Part shown: piece after piece, positions 33,864 through 41,809 of the stretch
How positions within the stretch are numbered: position 1 is the first letter of the stretch
Layout of the letters: every line of letters starts with the position of its first letter
Source: Flagellimonas amoyensis
GTDB lineage: Bacteria > Bacteroidota > Bacteroidia > Flavobacteriales > Flavobacteriaceae
NCBI RefSeq assembly: GCF_003058265.1
Contig: NZ_QBUK01000006.1
Coordinates: 1 to 64,000, forward strand
DNA: 64,000 nucleotides
Reading direction: 5' to 3'
Notes under the pieces: model-generated
What the model saw: only the letters and a program-made list of their open reading frames with translations
What the model was told of the DNA's origin: nothing
Database searches by the model: none
Position numbers and translations under genes: made by a program

Positions 33864-34436
33864 ATGAAAAAGACAATCTTAAGTTTAGCCTTGATCACCC
33901 TTTTTGGAGCTTCTGCTATTGCAAATCCAATTGAAAAAGAAACCAAAGAAGTGAAAGCCTCTGAAAGCACCGTAACCTGGAAAGGGTACAAAGTGGGCGG
34001 TTCACACACCGGCACCATCTCCCTTCAATCAGGAGCCCTCGAGTTTGACGGTGAAAAATTGGTAGGAGGACAGTTTGTGGTAGACATGACCAGCATCAAC
34101 ACCACCGACCTGGAAGGTGATTACAAAGGAAAATTGGATGGCCACTTGGGTTCTGACGACTTTTTTGGCATCGAAAAACACCCAACTGCCAAATTGGTGT
34201 TCACCAAAGTGAAAGCTACTGGCAAAAACTCGTATGCTGTTACCGGCGACCTTACCATCAAAGGCACTACAAAACCCGTGACTTTCGATGTATCTGTTTA
34301 CGGTGACAAGGCCACTGCCTCTTTGAAAGTGGACCGAACCAACTACGATGTAAAATACGGTTCTGGCATCATTGGTACCGCCAAGGACAAGTTGATCTAT
34401 GACGAATTTGATTTGGTAGTTGATCTACAGATGTAA
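33864..34436 (+). CDS. YceI-family periplasmic lipid/isoprenoid-binding protein
   Basis: The 190-residue protein has a signal peptide (MKKTILSLALITLFGASAIA) and a YceI lipocalin-like barrel: STVTWKGYKVGGSHTGTISLQSGALEF, then GHLGSDDFFGIEKHPTAKLVF, TGDLTIKGTTKPVTFDV and KVDRTNYDVKYGSG. YceI proteins bind long isoprenoids such as quinones in a hydrophobic cavity. With a MarR regulator and a nitro/quinone reductase upstream, a quinone-stress module is plausible. A strong terminator follows. Confidence 0.94.
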   Translation: MKKTILSLALITLFGASAIANPIEKETKEVKASESTVTWKGYKVGGSHTGTISLQSGALEFDGEKLVGGQFVVDMTSINTTDLEGDYKGKLDGHLGSDDFFGIEKHPTAKLVFTKVKATGKNSYAVTGDLTIKGTTKPVTFDVSVYGDKATASLKVDRTNYDVKYGSGIIGTAKDKLIYDEFDLVVDLQM

Positions 34437-34457
34437 TCAGCTCCAGTTTAGTGTGTG

Positions 34458-34499
34458 AAAATCCCGTCCAGGAAAATCTTGGACGGGATTTTGATTTTA
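34458..34499 (+). terminator. Rho-independent terminator after the YceI gene
   Basis: Perfect 13-bp arms AAAATCCCGTCCA (34458-34470) and TGGACGGGATTTT (34480-34492), followed by GATTTT. It separates the MarR module from the trp promoter that starts at 34512. Confidence 0.94.
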
Positions 34500-34511
34500 C
34501 ACAAAACAATG

Positions 34512-34542
34512 TTTGCCCGTTAAAAATTCCTCCCTATATTTG
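34512..34542 (+). promoter_or_regulatory. trp operon promoter
   Basis: TTTG (34512-34515), a 19-nt spacer and TATATTTG (34535-34542): an exact match to the Bacteroidota -33/-7 consensus and the best promoter in the window. Transcription should begin at about 34546-34548, which is at the ATG of the leader peptide. Confidence 0.85.
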
Positions 34543-34547
34543 AGGCA

Positions 34548-34604
34548 ATGAAATTATTTATAGCAAATAACTGGTGGTGGAACAACTTACGTCAAACGTC
34601 GTGA
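34548..34604 (+). CDS. trpL: trp operon leader peptide with three consecutive Trp codons
   Basis: A short reading frame, ATG to TGA, encodes MKLFIANNWWWNNLRQTS (18 residues). Codons 9-11 are TGG TGG TGG (34572-34580). The frame starts 5 nt after the -7 box, so it is nearly leaderless. Its stop codon overlaps the 5' strand of the antiterminator (34598-34604). When charged tRNA-Trp is scarce, a ribosome stalled on the Trp codons leaves that strand free. When Trp is plentiful, the ribosome reaches the stop codon and covers the strand. This is the classical trpL design; the sequence match is strong, the mechanism is inferred. Confidence 0.9.
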   Translation: MKLFIANNWWWNNLRQTS

Positions 34605-34665
34605 GCTAAGTCCCCGTTATAACCATACAAGAGGCTTGTCATCACGACAGGCCTTTTTCTTTTTT
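34598..34665 (+). promoter_or_regulatory. trp attenuator: antiterminator and terminator
   Basis: The terminator hairpin is AGGCTTGTC (34632-34640), loop, GACAGGCCT (34646-34654), 9 bp with one G-T pair, followed by TTTTTCTTTTTT. The rival structure pairs GTCGTGA (34598-34604, end of the leader frame) perfectly with TCACGAC (34642-34648). This would take up the loop and the 3' arm of the terminator, so the two are mutually exclusive. The trpE ATG follows 9 nt after the T-run. Confidence 0.9.
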
Positions 34666-34673
34666 AGGACCTT

Positions 34674-36071
34674 ATGAAATACAATTTAGAAACACATTAC
34701 AAAAAAATCTTGGCCGACACCATCACCCCGGTGAGTGTCTATCTCAAGATCAGGGACAAGTTCCCGAACAGTATTCTGCTGGAAAGTAGCGACTACCATG
34801 CCAACGACAACAGCTTCTCGTACATCTGCTGCAATCCCATTGCCTACATCAAAGTGGAGCAAGAGACCATCACGCAACAATTCCCTGATGGTAAAAAATT
34901 GGAAACTGCCATTGATTCTTCTACCGATGTGACCGAGGTCATCCACAACTTTGCCAATCAATTCTCGGTGGCCCAAAATGGTTTTAAATTCATCAACAAT
35001 GGCCTTTTTGGCTATATGGCCTATGATGCGGTCCGGTATTTTGAGGATGTGGACATTTCTAAAAAAGAAGATTCGGTAAGCATTCCGGACATCTATTACG
35101 CGGTGTACAAGAACATCATTGCCATCAACCATTTTAAGAATGAGGCTTATCTGTTCGCCCATTGTTATGATTCGGAAAGTAATGTGGAGGAGATTGCGCA
35201 ACTTTTCAATGTACGAACCTTTTCTTCCTACAATTTCAACAAGGAAGGTGAGCCCAAATCCAATTTGAAGGACGAGGAATACAAAGAACATGTGGAACTC
35301 GCCAAAAAGCACTGTCAGCGTGGCGATGTGTTCCAATTGGTACTTTCTAGAAGGTTCACCCAAAAATTCAAGGGGGATGAATTCAATGTGTACCGTGCTT
35401 TGCGTTCCATCAACCCCTCCCCTTACCTATTCTATTTTGATTACGGCAACTTCAAGATTTTTGGAAGTTCGCCCGAAGCACAATTAATCGTGAAAGAAGG
35501 CAAGGCAGAGATCCATCCCATCGCCGGCACCTACAAGCGTACCGGAAATGATGAAAAGGATGCCGAACTGGCCAAAAAATTGGCCCAAGACGATAAGGAA
35601 AATAGCGAGCATGTGATGCTGGTAGATCTGGCCCGAAACGACCTCAGCCGAAATGGCAACACGGTGAACGTGGAAACGTATCGAGAGGTACAATACTTCT
35701 CGCACGTGATCCATTTGGTTTCCAAAGTAACCGGACAAAAAAAGAAGGACATCAGCACCATGAAAGTGGTGGCCGATACGTTCCCAGCGGGAACCTTGAG
35801 TGGCGCGCCCAAACATATGGCCATGCAACTCATTGAAAAATACGAGAAAACCAGCCGTTCCTATTATGGTGGAGCCATTGGGTTCATGGATTTTGAAGGC
35901 AATTTTAACCACGCCATCATGATCCGCACCTTTTTGAGCAAAAACCACGAACTACACTATCAGGCTGGAGCTGGATTGGTGGCTGCATCCAACGCCGAAG
36001 ACGAACTACAGGAAACCTATAACAAACTGGGCGCCTTAACCAAGGCCCTTGAAATTGCCGAAACGATCTGA
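34674..36071 (+). CDS. trpE: Anthranilate synthase component I
   Basis: The 465-residue enzyme makes anthranilate from chorismate with ammonia supplied by TrpG. The N-terminal LLESSDYH segment corresponds to the Trp-binding feedback site (LLES). The catalytic C-terminal half has the chorismate-binding signatures: IFGSSPEAQLIVKEGKAEIHPIAGTYKRTGN, HVMLVDLARNDLSRNGN, DTFPAGTLSGAPKHMAMQLI and YYGGAIGFMD. It is the first structural gene after the attenuator; trpG follows after 2 bp, so translational coupling is likely. Confidence 0.98.
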   Translation: MKYNLETHYKKILADTITPVSVYLKIRDKFPNSILLESSDYHANDNSFSYICCNPIAYIKVEQETITQQFPDGKKLETAIDSSTDVTEVIHNFANQFSVAQNGFKFINNGLFGYMAYDAVRYFEDVDISKKEDSVSIPDIYYAVYKNIIAINHFKNEAYLFAHCYDSESNVEEIAQLFNVRTFSSYNFNKEGEPKSNLKDEEYKEHVELAKKHCQRGDVFQLVLSRRFTQKFKGDEFNVYRALRSINPSPYLFYFDYGNFKIFGSSPEAQLIVKEGKAEIHPIAGTYKRTGNDEKDAELAKKLAQDDKENSEHVMLVDLARNDLSRNGNTVNVETYREVQYFSHVIHLVSKVTGQKKKDISTMKVVADTFPAGTLSGAPKHMAMQLIEKYEKTSRSYYGGAIGFMDFEGNFNHAIMIRTFLSKNHELHYQAGAGLVAASNAEDELQETYNKLGALTKALEIAETI

Positions 36072-36073
36072 CC

Positions 36074-36643
36074 ATGGGAAGAAAGATTTTAATGATAGAC
36101 AATTACGATAGTTTCACCTACAATTTGGTGCACTATCTGGAAGATTTGGATTGTGAGGTCACTGTAAAACGGAACGACCAACTCACTTTGGACGAAGTGG
36201 AACCGTTCCAATACATTGTGTTGTCCCCCGGACCGGGCATTCCTGATGAAGCCGGATTGTTGAAGGAAATCATCAAAACATACGCCCCTACCAAAAGCAT
36301 TTTTGGCGTCTGCTTGGGATTGCAGGCCATTGGCGAAGTTTTTGGCGGCACATTGGTGAACCTGGACAAGGTGTACCATGGGGTGGCTACCACCATCACT
36401 GTGACCAAGGACGACCCTATTTTCAAAGGAATGGCTAAAAACCTTCAAGTGGGAAGGTATCACTCCTGGGTGGTAGACACAAAAGTGCCGGAAGTCCTTG
36501 AAATTACCTCTGTGGATGAAAACGGACAGATCATGTCACTTCGACATACGAAATATGATGTGACCGCAGTACAGTTTCACCCGGAATCCGTCTTGACCCC
36601 CGAAGGAAAACAAATGCTTAAAAATTGGCTCAATAGAGATTAG
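36074..36643 (+). CDS. trpG: Anthranilate synthase component II (glutamine amidotransferase)
   Basis: The 189-residue class I glutamine amidotransferase releases ammonia for TrpE. The catalytic triad is visible: Cys80 in GVCLGLQAIGEVFGG, and His and Glu in QFHPESVLTPEG. The oxyanion loop is SPGPGIPDEAG. In Flavobacteriaceae it may also be shared with folate synthesis (pabA role). It lies 2 bp after trpE; a palindromic repeat lies between it and trpD. Confidence 0.98.
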   Translation: MGRKILMIDNYDSFTYNLVHYLEDLDCEVTVKRNDQLTLDEVEPFQYIVLSPGPGIPDEAGLLKEIIKTYAPTKSIFGVCLGLQAIGEVFGGTLVNLDKVYHGVATTITVTKDDPIFKGMAKNLQVGRYHSWVVDTKVPEVLEITSVDENGQIMSLRHTKYDVTAVQFHPESVLTPEGKQMLKNWLNRD

Positions 36644-36709: not shown

Positions 36710-37702
36710 ATGAAAGAGACTTTAAACAAACTGATCAATCACGAAATACTGCCCAAGGAAGAAGCCAAACAGGTGCTGGTGAACATTGCCAAGGGTGATT
36801 ACAACACCTCCCAGATTGCCGCATTCCTTACCGTGTATATGATGCGGAGTGTCACCATTGAGGAGCTCGAAGGTTTCCGTGATGCACTTTTGGACCTTTG
36901 CTTGGCAGTGGACCTATCCGACTATGACCCTATCGACCTTTGCGGCACCGGGGGTGATGGTAAGGACACTTTCAACATTTCCACTTTGGCCTCCTTTGTA
37001 ACGGCAGGAGCAGGAATTCCCGTGACCAAACATGGCAATTATGGGGTTTCTTCCAAATGTGGCAGTAGCAATGTGATAGAATTTTTGGGCATCAAGTTCA
37101 GTAATGACCATGATTTTTTAAAGCGGTCCATTGAAGAAGCAGGGATTTGTGTGCTACACGCTCCTCTCTTCCACCCTGCCATGAAAAATGTGGGACCCAT
37201 CCGAAGGGAACTGGCCGTGAAGACCTTTTTCAATATGTTGGGACCCATGGTCAATCCTGCTTTTCCGAAGAACCAGATGGTAGGAGTTTATAATTTGGAG
37301 CTGGCACGGATGTACGGGTATCTCTATCAGAACACCGATAAAAAATTCACCATTTTGAACGCCTTGGATGGCTATGATGAAATTTCGTTGACAGGTGACA
37401 CCAAGACCATTTCCAACAACTCCGAAGCCATGTTGACCCCTGCCGACTTTGGAGTGGAAAAAGTAACCCAAGAAGAGATTACCGGTGGAGAGGACATTTC
37501 CGAATCGGCCCAAATCTTTATGAATGTGTTGCAAGGAAAGGGAACCGAGGCCCAGAACAATGTGGTCTGCGCCAATGCCGGGGTGGCCATTGCCACGGTA
37601 AAGGGCATCACCCCAAAGCAAGGATTTGAAAACGCCAAGGAATCACTATTGGGCGGAAAAGGATTGGAGGCGTTGAAGAAGTTGCAATCTTTGTCCCAAT
37701 AG
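36710..37702 (+). CDS. trpD: Anthranilate phosphoribosyltransferase
   Basis: The 330-residue enzyme transfers phosphoribosyl from PRPP to anthranilate. Key motifs are LCGTGGDGKDTFNISTLASFVTAGAG (PRPP/diphosphate loop), KHGNYGVSSKCGSSNVIEFLGI and the anthranilate-binding HPAMKNVGPIRRELAVKTFFNMLGP. The stop is followed at once by direct repeats and an inserted small gene before trpC, which is unusual within a biosynthetic operon. Confidence 0.98.
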   Translation: MKETLNKLINHEILPKEEAKQVLVNIAKGDYNTSQIAAFLTVYMMRSVTIEELEGFRDALLDLCLAVDLSDYDPIDLCGTGGDGKDTFNISTLASFVTAGAGIPVTKHGNYGVSSKCGSSNVIEFLGIKFSNDHDFLKRSIEEAGICVLHAPLFHPAMKNVGPIRRELAVKTFFNMLGPMVNPAFPKNQMVGVYNLELARMYGYLYQNTDKKFTILNALDGYDEISLTGDTKTISNNSEAMLTPADFGVEKVTQEEITGGEDISESAQIFMNVLQGKGTEAQNNVVCANAGVAIATVKGITPKQGFENAKESLLGGKGLEALKKLQSLSQ

Positions 37703-37732: not shown

Positions 37733-37783
37733 TTGAACTCAAATCAGAACTTGATCGAAAAAATAAAAATCATTCAACTGTCA

Positions 37784-38146
37784 ATGTTAGAATCAAAATT
37801 TAAGTTCGAAAAAATCATTGTTTGGCAAAAAGCTATGGATTATGGCGAAGCCATCAATGAAATAACCCAACTTTTCCCAAAAGAGGAAATATATAATCTC
37901 AGTTCTCAACTAAGAAGGGCAGTTGATTCCATTGCATTAAATATTTCCGAGGGTTCAACAGGACAGACCAATCCAGAATTTAAAAAATTCATGGCCTATG
38001 CCATTCGCTCCTTGGCCGAAGTTGTCACTTGTTTACATAAAGCCAAAAGAAGAAAATATATCCCAACCGAAAGCTTTGATACCCTATATGAAGAAGCATT
38101 CAATTTAATGAATATGATGGTCGCCTTTCGAAAAAACATCAAATGA
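37784..38146 (+). CDS. Four helix bundle protein (23S rRNA intervening-sequence family) inserted in the trp operon
   Basis: From ATG 37784 the product has 120 residues (MLESKFKFEKIIVWQKAMDYGEAINEITQLFPKEE). A TTG-started longer frame from 37733 reads into the flanking repeats and is less likely. The motif FEKIIVWQKAMDY...SSQLRRAVDSIALNISEGS marks the four-helix-bundle/S23 family, first known from intervening sequences of 23S rRNA genes. Its function is unknown. The gene has no link to Trp synthesis and lies between trpD and trpC, flanked by short repeats in inverted orientation (37703-37732, 38158-38184). Base use here is more A/T-rich than in the neighbours. I infer insertion as a small mobile cassette. 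Confidence 0.92.
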   Translation: MLESKFKFEKIIVWQKAMDYGEAINEITQLFPKEEIYNLSSQLRRAVDSIALNISEGSTGQTNPEFKKFMAYAIRSLAEVVTCLHKAKRRKYIPTESFDTLYEEAFNLMNMMVAFRKNIK

Positions 38147-38197: not shown

Positions 38198-38983
38198 ATG
38201 AACATACTAGACAAAATAGTAGCCGACAAACGCAAAGAAGTCGATTTGAAAAAATCCTTGATCACCATTTCCAAACTGGAAGCCTCGGTGATGGTGGAAA
38301 GCACTTCAATGTCCTTGGCAGCACTTTTGCGAAAAAGCAATACGGGAATCATTGCCGAACACAAGAGGCGATCTCCGTCCAAATCGGTCATCAACCAAAA
38401 TTTGAACGTGCAGGATGTGGCCAAAGGCTATGCAGATGCAGGCGTTTGTGGCATGTCCGTTTTAACGGATGGAAAATATTTTGGAGGTTCTTTGGACGAC
38501 TTGGTTTTAGCGAGGGCAGCCGTGAACATTCCGCTCTTACGTAAGGAATTCATCATAGATGAATATCAAATTGTGGAGGCCAAGGCCTATGGTGCCGATG
38601 TGATTTTGTTGATCGCGGCCATTTTGTCACGCGATGAAATCAAGACACTTTCCGAATTGGCCAAAAGTTTGGGCTTGGATGTATTGTTGGAAATCCACAA
38701 CGAAGAGGAACTCCATAAATCCATCATGCCCAGTCTGGATATGTTAGGCGTGAACAACAGAAATTTGAAAACCTTCGAGGTGAGCCTGGATACCAGCAAA
38801 ACCCTATCGGAACAGATTCCGGATGACTTTGTAAAAGTGTCCGAAAGCGGCATCAGTTCCATTGAAGCAATCAGAGATTTAAAAGAATACGGCTACCAAG
38901 GATTTTTGATTGGAGAGAATTTCATGAAGACGGATGATCCTGGCGCCAGTGCGAAAACATTTATTGATGAATTAGAAAAATAA
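38198..38983 (+). CDS. trpC: Indole-3-glycerol phosphate synthase
   Basis: The 261-residue TIM-barrel enzyme closes the indole ring. Motifs are IIAEHKRRSPSKSVI (catalytic Lys), GGSLDDL, LLRKEFIIDEYQIVEAKAYGADVILLIAA (Lys/Glu), GVNNRNLKTFEV and KVSESGISS. It follows the inserted four-helix-bundle gene. It is unfused to trpF, in contrast to enterobacterial TrpCF. Confidence 0.98.
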   Translation: MNILDKIVADKRKEVDLKKSLITISKLEASVMVESTSMSLAALLRKSNTGIIAEHKRRSPSKSVINQNLNVQDVAKGYADAGVCGMSVLTDGKYFGGSLDDLVLARAAVNIPLLRKEFIIDEYQIVEAKAYGADVILLIAAILSRDEIKTLSELAKSLGLDVLLEIHNEEELHKSIMPSLDMLGVNNRNLKTFEVSLDTSKTLSEQIPDDFVKVSESGISSIEAIRDLKEYGYQGFLIGENFMKTDDPGASAKTFIDELEK

Positions 38984-39089: not shown

Positions 39090-39782
39090 ATGAAACTAAA
39101 AGTTTGCGGCATGAATCAAAACCCAACTGAGGTGGCACAATTGCAACCCGATTACTTGGGTTTTATTTTCTGGGAACCTTCCTCACGCTATTTTAAGGGA
39201 GCAATGCCGCAATTGCCAAAATCCATCAAAAAAGTAGGGGTTTTTGTGGATGCCCCTGTGGAAGAAGTTTTGGAAAAAGTGAATCACTACGGATTGGATG
39301 CCGTGCAACTGCATGGGAAGGAAAGTGTGGAGTATTGCCGCACCTTGCGTCACCCCGAACTTGTTTCGGGGTCTCACCCGAGTGAGATGCTGAATCAAGT
39401 TCAGCATGACGAACTTAAAATCATCAAGGTCTTTTCCATTAAAGATAATTTTGATTTTTCGGTCTTGAAAGATTATGAATCCGTTTGCGATTATTTCCTT
39501 TTCGACACCAAAGGAAAATTACCTGGAGGCAATGGGTATACTTTTGACTGGTCCGTTTTGGAACACTATCCGTCCACCAAACCCTTCTTTTTAAGTGGGG
39601 GAATCGGATTGGATTCCGTGGAGAACTTAAAGGAATTTTTGAACAGTCCAGCTTCGAAATATTGCTTTGCCCTAGATGTGAACAGCAAATTCGAAATCGA
39701 ACCCGGACTAAAAGACATTACGTCATTGAAAACATTCATCAATGAACTCAGTGACGACTTACAACTTAAAACTGACAACTGA
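39090..39782 (+). CDS. trpF: Phosphoribosylanthranilate isomerase with an in-frame palindromic-element insertion
   Basis: The 230-residue TIM-barrel isomerase is about 20 residues longer than usual. The catalytic Cys (KLKVCGMNQ) and Asp ([12 protein letters not shown]) are present, as are [29 protein letters not shown] and [13 protein letters not shown]. Residues 87-107 ([10 protein letters not shown]...QVQHD) are encoded by a 63-bp palindromic repeat (39348-39410) inserted without a frameshift. The insertion falls between helix 4 and strand 5, on the barrel face opposite the active site, so activity is probably kept. The last base of its stop codon is the first base of the trpB ATG. Confidence 0.97.
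39348..39411. repeat. Cloverleaf-like palindromic element inside trpF
   Basis: Three hairpins lie within outer arms CGTCA/TGACG: CCCCGAA/TTCGGGG, TCTCAC/GTGAGA and GCTGAA/TTCAGC. The 63-bp insert (21 codons) is translated as RHPELVSGS...QVQHD. I recognise this peptide as a recurrent one in proteins and intergenic DNA of Bacteroidota and some other bacteria. It is analogous to the palindromic elements found in Rickettsia genes. Confidence 0.9.
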
Positions 39783-40966
39783 TGATGAGTTATCACGCTG
39801 ATGAACGAGGCTATTATGGGGAATATGGAGGGGCTTTTATCCCCGAAATGCTGTACCCCAATTGTGAGGAGCTACGGCAGAATTACCTAAAGATTATGGC
39901 GGAACCTTCCTTTCAAGAAGAATTCCATCAATTGCTAAAGGATTATGTGGGCCGACCCACACCCCTATATTTTGCGGAACGCCTATCCAAAAAGTACAAC
40001 ACCAAGATCTACCTCAAACGGGAAGATTTGTGCCACACCGGTGCGCACAAGGTCAACAACACCATCGGGCAGATTTTGATGGCGAAACGATTGGGCAAAC
40101 ACCGCATCATTGCAGAGACCGGTGCCGGTCAGCATGGTGTTGCCACGGCAACGGTTTGTGCCCTTATGGGAATCGAGTGTGTGGTGTATATGGGCGAGAT
40201 TGATATTGCCCGACAAGCACCCAATGTGGCCCGTATGAAAATGTTGGGCGCAGAGGTACGACCTGCCACTTCAGGCAGTAAAACCCTGAAGGATGCCACC
40301 AATGAAGCTATCCGTGATTGGATCAATAACCCTGTGGACACGCATTACATTATCGGTTCGGTGGTTGGGCCGCACCCTTACCCTGATATGGTAGCTCGAT
40401 TTCAATCGGTCATTTCTGAAGAAGTAAAATCCCAATTATTGGAAAAAGAAGGTCGTGAAGATCCAGATTTTGTTGTCGCCTGTGTAGGTGGTGGTAGTAA
40501 CGCTGCTGGAGCTTTCTACCATTTTCTGGATACTCCCGAAGTGGGGATTATTGCTGTGGAAGCGGCAGGAAAAGGCATCCATTCAGGTGAAAGTGCCGCA
40601 ACTTCTGCCTTGGGAAAGGTAGGCATCATCCACGGAAGCAAAACCTTGTTGATGCAGACTCCCGACGGACAGATTACCGAACCCTACTCCATTTCCGCTG
40701 GATTGGATTACCCTGGTGTGGGACCCTTGCATGCACATTTGTACACTTCGGGTCGTGGGGAATTCATTTCCATCACCGATGACGAGGCCATGAAAGCCGG
40801 ATTGGACCTTTGCAAATTGGAAGGCATCATTCCAGCCATCGAATCCTCCCATGCCTTGGCCATTTTTAAGGACCGGAAGTTTAAAGAAGATGACGTGGTG
40901 GTAGTGAACCTTTCAGGCCGCGGAGACAAAGATTTACAGAACTATATCGATTATTTTAATTTGTAA
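39782..40966 (+). CDS. trpB: Tryptophan synthase beta subunit
   Basis: The 394-residue PLP enzyme joins indole and serine. The PLP lysine lies in [13 protein letters not shown], the phosphate-binding loop is [11 protein letters not shown], and [29 protein letters not shown] and [14 protein letters not shown] are typical of TrpB1. The ATG overlaps the trpF stop by one base. A second ATG follows directly ([10 protein letters not shown]), so either may be used. trpA follows after a repeat-filled gap. Confidence 0.98.
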
Positions 40967-41044: not shown

Positions 41045-41809
41045 ATGATGAACAGAATCAAACTAAAACTTCAGGAGAATAAAAAAATCCTCTCCATATA
41101 TTTCACTGCCGGTTACCCTTCATTGAACGACACGGTAAAAATCATCCAAGATTTGGAAGAAAGTGGGGTGGACCTCATCGAGATAGGATTACCCTTTAGT
41201 GACCCTTTGGCGGATGGCCCTACCATTCAAGCAAGTTCCACGGCCGCTCTTAAAAATGGAATGACCACCACCCTGCTCTTCGAGCAACTGAAGGATATTC
41301 GTAAATCAGTTTCCATTCCCTTGATTTTGATGGGGTATTTCAATCCTGTTTTGCAATATGGCGTAGAGGAGTTTTGCCAAAAATGCGAAGAAATTGGCAT
41401 TGACGGACTCATTCTTCCGGATCTACCCCTTGATGTGTATCAGGAGGAATATGAAACCATCTTCAAAAAGCACGGTTTGATCAATGTGTTTTTGATTACT
41501 CCCCAGACCAGTGATGCCCGTATCAGGGCCATTGATGATGCTTCGGAAGGGTTTATCTACATGGTAAGCTCCGCCAGTACCACAGGGACCAAGGAAGGTT
41601 TCGGAACGGAACAAGCCACTTATTTTGAACGCATTGCAGGGATGAAATTGAAGAACCCACAGATTGTTGGGTTTGGGATCAGCAATGCACAGACCTTTCA
41701 GCAAGCTACGGAACAGGCCAAAGGAGCCATCATCGGCTCGGCCTTCATCAAACATTTAACACAAAATGGGGTGAACGGAATCGGTGGTTTTGTGGGTCAA
41801 ATTCGTTAA
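41045..41809 (+). CDS. trpA: Tryptophan synthase alpha subunit
   Basis: The 254-residue TIM-barrel subunit cleaves indole-3-glycerol phosphate. The catalytic Glu and Asp are in LIEIGLPFSDPLADGP; DGLILPDLPLD and GFIYMVSSASTTGTKEGF follow the family pattern. It is the last gene of the operon. ATG 41045 gives MMNRIKLKLQ; the second ATG at 41048 is equally possible. Confidence 0.98.
   Translation: MMNRIKLKLQENKKILSIYFTAGYPSLNDTVKIIQDLEESGVDLIEIGLPFSDPLADGPTIQASSTAALKNGMTTTLLFEQLKDIRKSVSIPLILMGYFNPVLQYGVEEFCQKCEEIGIDGLILPDLPLDVYQEEYETIFKKHGLINVFLITPQTSDARIRAIDDASEGFIYMVSSASTTGTKEGFGTEQATYFERIAGMKLKNPQIVGFGISNAQTFQQATEQAKGAIIGSAFIKHLTQNGVNGIGGFVGQIR

Follow-up and report, generated by a model that had tools for sequence, protein, structure and literature searches.

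The trp operon of Flagellimonas amoyensis is preceded, in the 64,000-nucleotide stretch of DNA that we analysed (the window), by a compact element that we read, with a probability of roughly 0.87, as a ribosome-mediated transcription attenuator. This was also the reading put forward in the original prediction, and it is still the best one, as the Trp codons are conserved in relatives and both the terminator and the antiterminator show covariation. The promoter, the leader frame, the three TGG codons, the terminator with its T-run and a 7-bp pairing were all found on reading the sequence, letter for letter and in place. On the forward strand, a TTTG at 34512–34515, which we take to be the −33 motif of a Bacteroidota sigma-A promoter, lies 19 bases before the −7 box TATATTTG (34535–34542), and the leader peptide frame MKLFIANNWWWNNLRQTS with its stop follows at 34548–34604 (ATG at 34548, TGA at 34602–34604). 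The three Trp codons that form the putative sensor, recognized from the sequence and from relatives, occupy 34572–34580. Downstream of them, the predicted fold contains segment 1, CUUACG (34586–34591), as a candidate partner of CGUGAG (34600–34605) in a putative 1:2 hairpin. Segment 2, GUCGUGA (34598–34604), is the 5′ strand of the antiterminator and overlaps the stop codon, and it is the exact complement, in DNA letters GTCGTGA and TCACGAC, of segment 3 (UCACGAC, 34642–34648), the antiterminator 3′ strand, which consists of the terminator loop and the start of the descending arm; both segments are evident in the sequence and in relatives. The bases at 34607–34613 make up a predicted second antiterminator strand. 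The terminator hairpin itself (34632–34654; arms 34632–34640 and 34646–34654, loop ATCAC) was identified by reading the sequence, by a terminator scan and by covariation, and it runs into a U-rich tail with one C within it (34654–34665). The trpE start lies 19 bases past the end of the terminator stem.

The operon downstream of the attenuator is complete and lies on the forward strand: trpE (34674–36071; Pfam Anth_synt_I_N and Chorismate_bind), trpG (36074–36643; GATase), trpD (36710–37702; Glycos_transf_3), trpC (38198–38983; IGPS), trpF (39090–39782; PRAI), trpB (39782–40966; PALP and position) and trpA (41045–41809; Trp_syntA). Among the matches listed, the nearest named relatives of trpE belong to Flagellimonas/Allomuricauda (Muricauda) and are up to 97% identical. 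A 23S_rRNA_IVP gene (four-helix bundle) is situated inside the operon, between trpD and trpC (37733–38146), and trpF carries an in-frame, partly palindromic insert of 22 residues (39348–39413) that resembles a coding repeat element. Upstream of the leader is yceI (33864–34436; Pfam YceI), and a strong hairpin at 34458–34492, between yceI and the trp promoter, is probably the yceI terminator. Sub-threshold Rfam matches to trpB and rnk_pseudo at 34390–34500 were rejected, the sequence placing them on this hairpin.

Taken alone, the sequence of the element is modest evidence for an attenuator. Counting both strands, the window contains 4 triple TGG runs (TGGTGGTGG), a terminator scan of 34000–35500 found 1 site against a mean of 1.6 in shuffled sequences, and a Watson–Crick complement of at least 7 bases between the post-Trp segment and the terminator was obtained in 36 of 2000 dinucleotide shuffles. 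What places the attenuator beyond chance is its match to an Rfam family (E = 1.1e-5 for the whole window), together with its conservation. The core pattern was present exactly once per genome in 38 of 60 sampled Flavobacteriaceae genomes, and in none of the 60 when it was read backwards as a control.

The Rfam match is to RF01692, Bacteroid-trp ('Bacteroidete tryptophan peptide leader RNA'), which aligns to 34528–34640 over model positions 1–131 of 131 with 64.6 bits (gathering cut-off 49 bits). The element is a new instance of this catalogued family, which it matches above the cut-off, and its arrangement is not a new one. Bacteroid-trp dates from 2010 (Weinberg et al., 2010, PMC2864571, Table 1), and the discussion of PMC6414381 already interprets the F. 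psychrophilum RNA as a trp leader of the E. coli kind, acting by attenuation. As in RF01692, the element lies upstream of trp genes, with the Trp codons, the −7 box region and the start of the terminator inside the match, and membership shows no difference between the two; the Rfam model ends within the ascending arm. Being without the 3′ arm of the terminator, the model is therefore also without the antiterminator pairing.

RF01692 is present in one copy in the genome studied, in 68 of the 71 genomes of its genus and in 141 of 199 Flavobacteriaceae genomes, the other 58 giving no match. The search misses some members, since four genomes (G020, G022, G050 and G054) carry the exact attenuator core and gave no RF01692 match at E 0.001. 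In a phylum-wide sample 18 of 198 genomes matched, all 18 of them Flavobacteriaceae; among 14 control genomes Bacteroides ihuae exceeds the cut-off, and Bacteroid-trp is for that reason wider than this family. At class level a relaxed version of the exact-core pattern retrieved 4 of 295 genomes, all four Flavobacteriaceae, and is imperfectly specific, as its backwards control matched 2 genomes. Candidates for further attenuator copies in the genome studied, retrieved with our own model R1 (see below) at E up to 10, were rejected: the trp site stood at E = 2.9e-17 and the next of the 9 rows at E = 0.19, and the 3 of the 8 other rows that were inspected (L324, L326 and L327) showed no such leader.

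Conservation of the leader was followed in a genus set (59 of 69 matches, leaving out the 9 weakest and the second copy in one genome), in a Flavobacteriaceae set of 141 Rfam-chosen loci, one per genus, and in a trpE-anchored set that was chosen by protein, blind to the leader, as the best 80 of 583 trpE relatives and so consists of close ones. All 59 genus loci have a leader of 18 codons with WWW and a stop inside the core. An in-frame ATG was found in 135 of the 141 Flavobacteriaceae loci, with WWW in 131 and WW in 4 of these leaders. Every one of the trpE-anchored loci (80 of 80, the best 80 of 583) has an ATG frame holding WWW and an upstream terminator of at least 10 bp, and 69 of these 80 have the exact TCGTGA/TCACGA core. 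The check proposed at the outset, whether relatives conserve the Trp codons, thus favours the attenuator. The stop codon does lie on the antiterminator strand, as had been pointed out (TGA 34602–34604 within GTCGTGA 34598–34604), and in relatives it stays near the core, starting −11 to +8 bases from TCGTGA in all 128 Flavobacteriaceae loci that have this sequence (13 of the 141 are without it). With the stop so placed, a terminating ribosome of the assumed footprint would shield the core wholly or for the most part. TCGTGA is in frame with the Trp codons in 93 of the 128 loci, and the two remaining frames account for 32 and 3 loci; because it occurs in all three frames, coding alone does not account for its sequence.

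The −7 box is of the TAnnTTTG type, which an excerpt of PMC9723704 places at −12 to −5, and the predicted start of transcription is therefore 34547, one base before the leader ATG. In the genus the ATG lies 5 bases past the box in 59 of 59 loci, and in the trpE-anchored set (best 80 of 583) the spacing is 4–8 in 73 of 80. Among the 132 Flavobacteriaceae leaders with a box, it is 5 in 24, 4–8 in 44 and 14–21 in 65, the large values of which may stem from chance TAnnTTTG words. Judging by these spacings, almost leaderless leaders seem to be fixed in the genus and common, not universal, in Flavobacteriaceae, and translation of the leader peptide probably begins on an RNA with hardly any 5′ leader. 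We know of no Shine–Dalgarno sequences in flavobacteria. Among the F. psychrophilum mRNAs with mapped starts, the leaderless share is only 5.5%, as given in the same excerpt (PMC9723704).

A terminator stem of at least 9 bp was scored in 139 of the 141 Flavobacteriaceae loci, and the exact core is present in 119; of the 22 without it, two are without a usable terminator. Covariation was analyzed in an alignment of 60 of the 141 loci (A1), which comprises the locus studied, the 20 terminator-bearing variant cores and 39 loci chosen by script for divergence, and which is enriched for variant cores. In the terminator, 540 of 540 cells over 9 pairs are standard (slid controls at most 55.4%), and both-side changes occur in 7 of the 9 pairs, in 28 cells against 4.9 in shuffles; one of five measures, that of further pair types, did not exceed the shuffles, 454 of 500 of which scored as high. 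In the antiterminator, 85.6% of the cells over 8 pairs are standard against 82.9% in shuffles (slid controls at most 55.3%), with both-side changes in 15 cells against 4.5, and 0 of 500 shuffles were as high on either paired cells or both-side changes. When the six core pairs were scored in 140 of the 141 loci (L065, which ends at a contig edge, was left out), 817 of 840 cells were standard, compared with a mean of 812 and a maximum of 816 in shuffles. Covariation is thin within Flavobacteriaceae because the core is so conserved; the antiterminator signal is real but comes from few sequences, with compensated cores TCGCAA/TTGCGA in L131, TCGTAA/TTACGA in L168 and CCGT/ACGG in L166. One core pair is lost and the helix extended at the opposite end in L108, L126, L135, L165 and L170, and the pairing of segment 2 with segment 3 is poor in L164. 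Of the covariation that had been suggested as a check, that in the terminator stem is clearly there. In the antiterminator it is present too, thin within Flavobacteriaceae (817 against 812) and clearer across the other families described below.

Folds were predicted with assumed ribosome footprints. A ribosome with the third Trp codon in its A site would leave the RNA unoccupied from 34591 on; when such an RNA ends at 34648, the lowest predicted fold is the antiterminator (−13.8 kcal/mol), and extending it through the whole terminator brings the two folds level (−15.0 and −15.2 kcal/mol). If instead the first Trp codon occupies the A site and the RNA is free from 34585 onward, the antiterminator is again predicted in the cut RNA (−13.8 kcal/mol), and in the completed RNA the terminator is 5.5 kcal/mol ahead (−20.5 versus −15.0). 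A ribosome at the stop, leaving the RNA free from 34615, is predicted to make segment 2 unavailable so that the terminator forms; in the prediction with no ribosome the terminator is favoured (−28.0 versus −17.0 kcal/mol), with segment 2 held in a hairpin. Among relatives (131 of the 141 Flavobacteriaceae loci and the 59 genus loci), RNAs cut just past the loop were predicted to pair segment 2 with the terminator apex in 129 of 131 and 59 of 59 cases, as is expected from complementarity, and in the completed RNA the terminator had a median advantage of 5.5 kcal/mol in Flavobacteriaceae (120 loci) and 2.2 kcal/mol in the genus (58 loci). As the terminator is as stable or more so in the finished RNA, antitermination would have to act during transcription.

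The 7-bp pairing had been described as excluding the terminator. The pairing is exact, but it takes up most of the loop and reaches no more than 3 bases into the descending arm, and it is for this reason only part of the antiterminator. The antiterminator is predicted to have two parts, GUCGUGA/UCACGAC and a second, weaker helix in which 34607–34613 holds the ascending arm, as seen in the predicted stalled-state fold of the window and in the mean over relatives. To speak of a single antiterminator stem, as was done originally, is too simple, given this second helix and a possible 1:2 hairpin, both of them predicted. The latter has 6 predicted bp in the window; in relatives 61.0% and 68.1% of its cells are paired in two registers, and the slid control gave 66.0% in the first.

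For the working of the element, we infer the following course. Transcription would start about one base before the leader ATG, and a ribosome would start translating the 18 leader codons with hardly any RNA in front of them. With enough Trp-tRNA, the ribosome would reach the stop inside GUCGUGA and cover this strand, the terminator would form and RNA polymerase would stop near 34660. With little Trp-tRNA, it would stall at the three Trp codons and leave GUCGUGA free to pair with UCACGAC as the terminator loop emerges, while the second helix would hold the ascending arm, and the polymerase would enter trpE.

The fold drawn by Rfam suggests a different switch, in which the long RF01692 hairpin, pairing the Trp codons with post-stop bases, is the regulatory structure and GUCGUGA/UCACGAC is incidental. 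This hairpin is part of the model with which the window scores 64.6 bits, 14 of the 19 Rfam pairs that have letters on both sides in the window (of 24 in the model) are standard, and some inner pairs show both-side changes (among 140 sequences, 48 for 34586:34605 and 43 for 34590:34598). These inner pairs may, however, instead represent the 1:2 hairpin hiding segment 2, and when the Rfam pairs were mapped on the Flavobacteriaceae alignment (140 relatives), only 1363 of 2514 cells were standard. RNAalifold gave no consensus fold for the leader before the terminator and, with the RNA cut at the loop, recovered 4 pairs of the 2:3 helix, weakly (−1.2); the Rfam model also stops short of the complete terminator. 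We therefore consider it very unlikely that the long hairpin does the switching.

A pairing that spans the loop and only 3 descending-arm bases could let most of the stem still close, and it could on that ground be a pseudoknot formed alongside the lower stem, tuning termination without preventing it. This we regard as highly improbable, and a pure pseudoknot was dropped: according to the folds predicted for the stalled state, upstream bases pair with the ascending arm (82% in the genus against 65% with a shuffled spacer, and 63% against 55% in Flavobacteriaceae), and in some relatives (L297, L379, L382 and L385) the segment pairs with the ascending arm directly, over 8–9 bp and in the classical geometry. 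It is scarcely credible, finally, that a constitutive partial terminator merely adjoins an unrelated short frame with no tryptophan sensing. Triple TGG runs are not rare, with their 4 places in the window, but WWW recurs in 80 of 80 trpE-anchored loci (best 80 of 583) and in 131 of 135 Flavobacteriaceae leaders, and the stop codon is near the antiterminator strand in 128 of 128 loci. We thus retain the ribosome-mediated attenuator with a two-part predicted antiterminator.

Other Trp leaders were found beyond Flavobacteriaceae. The model R1, built from A1, found matches in 27 of 60 genomes from a sample of the order (Flavobacteriaceae included) and in 43 of 80 in another of its families, f5, several of the weaker matches being ordinary terminators by eye. 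The pairing was scored in 36 distant loci with a Trp run, leaving out five lysine loci (see below) and others that have no Trp leader (L299–L301, L303–L306, L309 and L383). Despite other letters, the post-Trp segment pairs with the terminator, and in 32 of the 36 loci it lies 9–20 bases after the Trp run. The mean score was 16.5 with the own terminator and 12.6 with a permuted partner (maximum 14.2 in 2000 permutations), in a set whose members include close relatives of one another and are not independent events; 21 of the 36 loci reached the 95th percentile of shuffled segments and 15 did not. Examples are GAGAAGC/GCUUCUC in L289, L290, L293 and L295 and, within one genus (L364–L367), GUUGGUUC/GAACCGAC, GUUGGUUC/GAAUCGAC and GUUGAUUC/GAAUCGAC (GGUUC/GAACC, GGUUC/GAAUC and GAUUC/GAAUC). 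In L287, L288 and L298 the hairpin picked by the script is doubtful; UGCGG/CCGCA (L287) and UGUGGG/CCCACA (L288) were seen by eye and stand outside any count. In two genomes a trpE-like gene is preceded by tandem attenuator units (L287/L307 and L288/L308), each of which has its own WWW leader and hairpin. At five further loci (L292, L368, L372, L377 and L380) the Trp leader is directly upstream of a trpB-like gene, named by eye from its N-terminal sequence, and not of trpE; the attenuator may therefore move with split operons.

In family f5 we also found a leader before an aspartokinase gene, at L291 and L294 (genus g203) and at L373, L375 and L376 (g343). It has 18 codons, MILSNLKK(G/A)KKQ(Y/N)LR.., with the core ACTTACGTC.AA.GTCGTGAG or a close variant and the GCTTGTCATCACGACAAGC terminator. 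For the protein at L291, the best score was that of the lysine-sensitive aspartokinase 3 model (390.7 bits, below its cut-off of 455), and the general aspartate kinase model gave 298.5 bits, above its cut-off of 208.7. The pattern was present in 14 of 88 g203 genomes (backwards control 1 of 88), and all 14 loci (L393–L406) have a KK(G/A)KK leader before the same lysC-like gene. When 30 genomes were searched by protein, a close homologue (85–95%) was found in 5, exactly the 5 pattern-positive ones. Because the same leader layout, post-sensor core and terminator here carry KK(G/A)KK before an accessory aspartokinase of the lysine-sensitive type, the Flavobacteriaceae trp attenuator could be a re-codable, almost leaderless chassis that was converted from Trp to Lys sensing by an exchange of sensor codons, a proposal for and against which we see the case as evenly balanced.

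We compared the element with the trp attenuator of E. coli, in which we take the main antiterminator pairing to be mainly to the ascending arm. Both have a leader with Trp codons, a terminator and an antiterminator that exclude each other (as predicted for the element here) and a possible 1:2 hairpin. Unlike the E. coli attenuator, the element described here is predicted to have next to no 5′ UTR; its three Trp codons are adjacent, its stop codon lies within the antiterminator strand, and its main pairing involves the loop and the descending arm of the terminator. A precedent for a leaderless start is the ilvBNC leader peptide of Corynebacterium, which Morbach and colleagues are said to have found, in 2000, to be formed without a ribosome binding site. 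The trp leader of Corynebacterium glutamicum has three consecutive Trp, as here, in an actinobacterial host; attenuator leader peptides for trpE, ilvB, leuA and aroF of that species, and RF00513 as the Rfam entry of the E. coli trp attenuator, are given in an excerpt of PMC4046766. For F. psychrophilum, section 19 of PMC9723704 speaks of 'strong clues' that amino-acid operons are preceded by leader-peptide attenuators, and it names pheA and hisG, not trp. Our literature search, covering sources available in part, found no experimental test of the Bacteroid-trp mechanism.

Bacteroid-trp has been a computed family since 2010, and its Rfam fold omits the pairing that would do the switching. Added here are the antiterminator missing from Rfam, comparative support, a predicted leaderless start and the lysine version, and the comparison yields a three-state working model with named bases to mutate. 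Together, our analyses point to leader peptides in flavobacteria that are started from RNA with almost no 5′ leader, and the lysine version would, if it is confirmed, amount to a natural experiment in switching an attenuator to a different signal.
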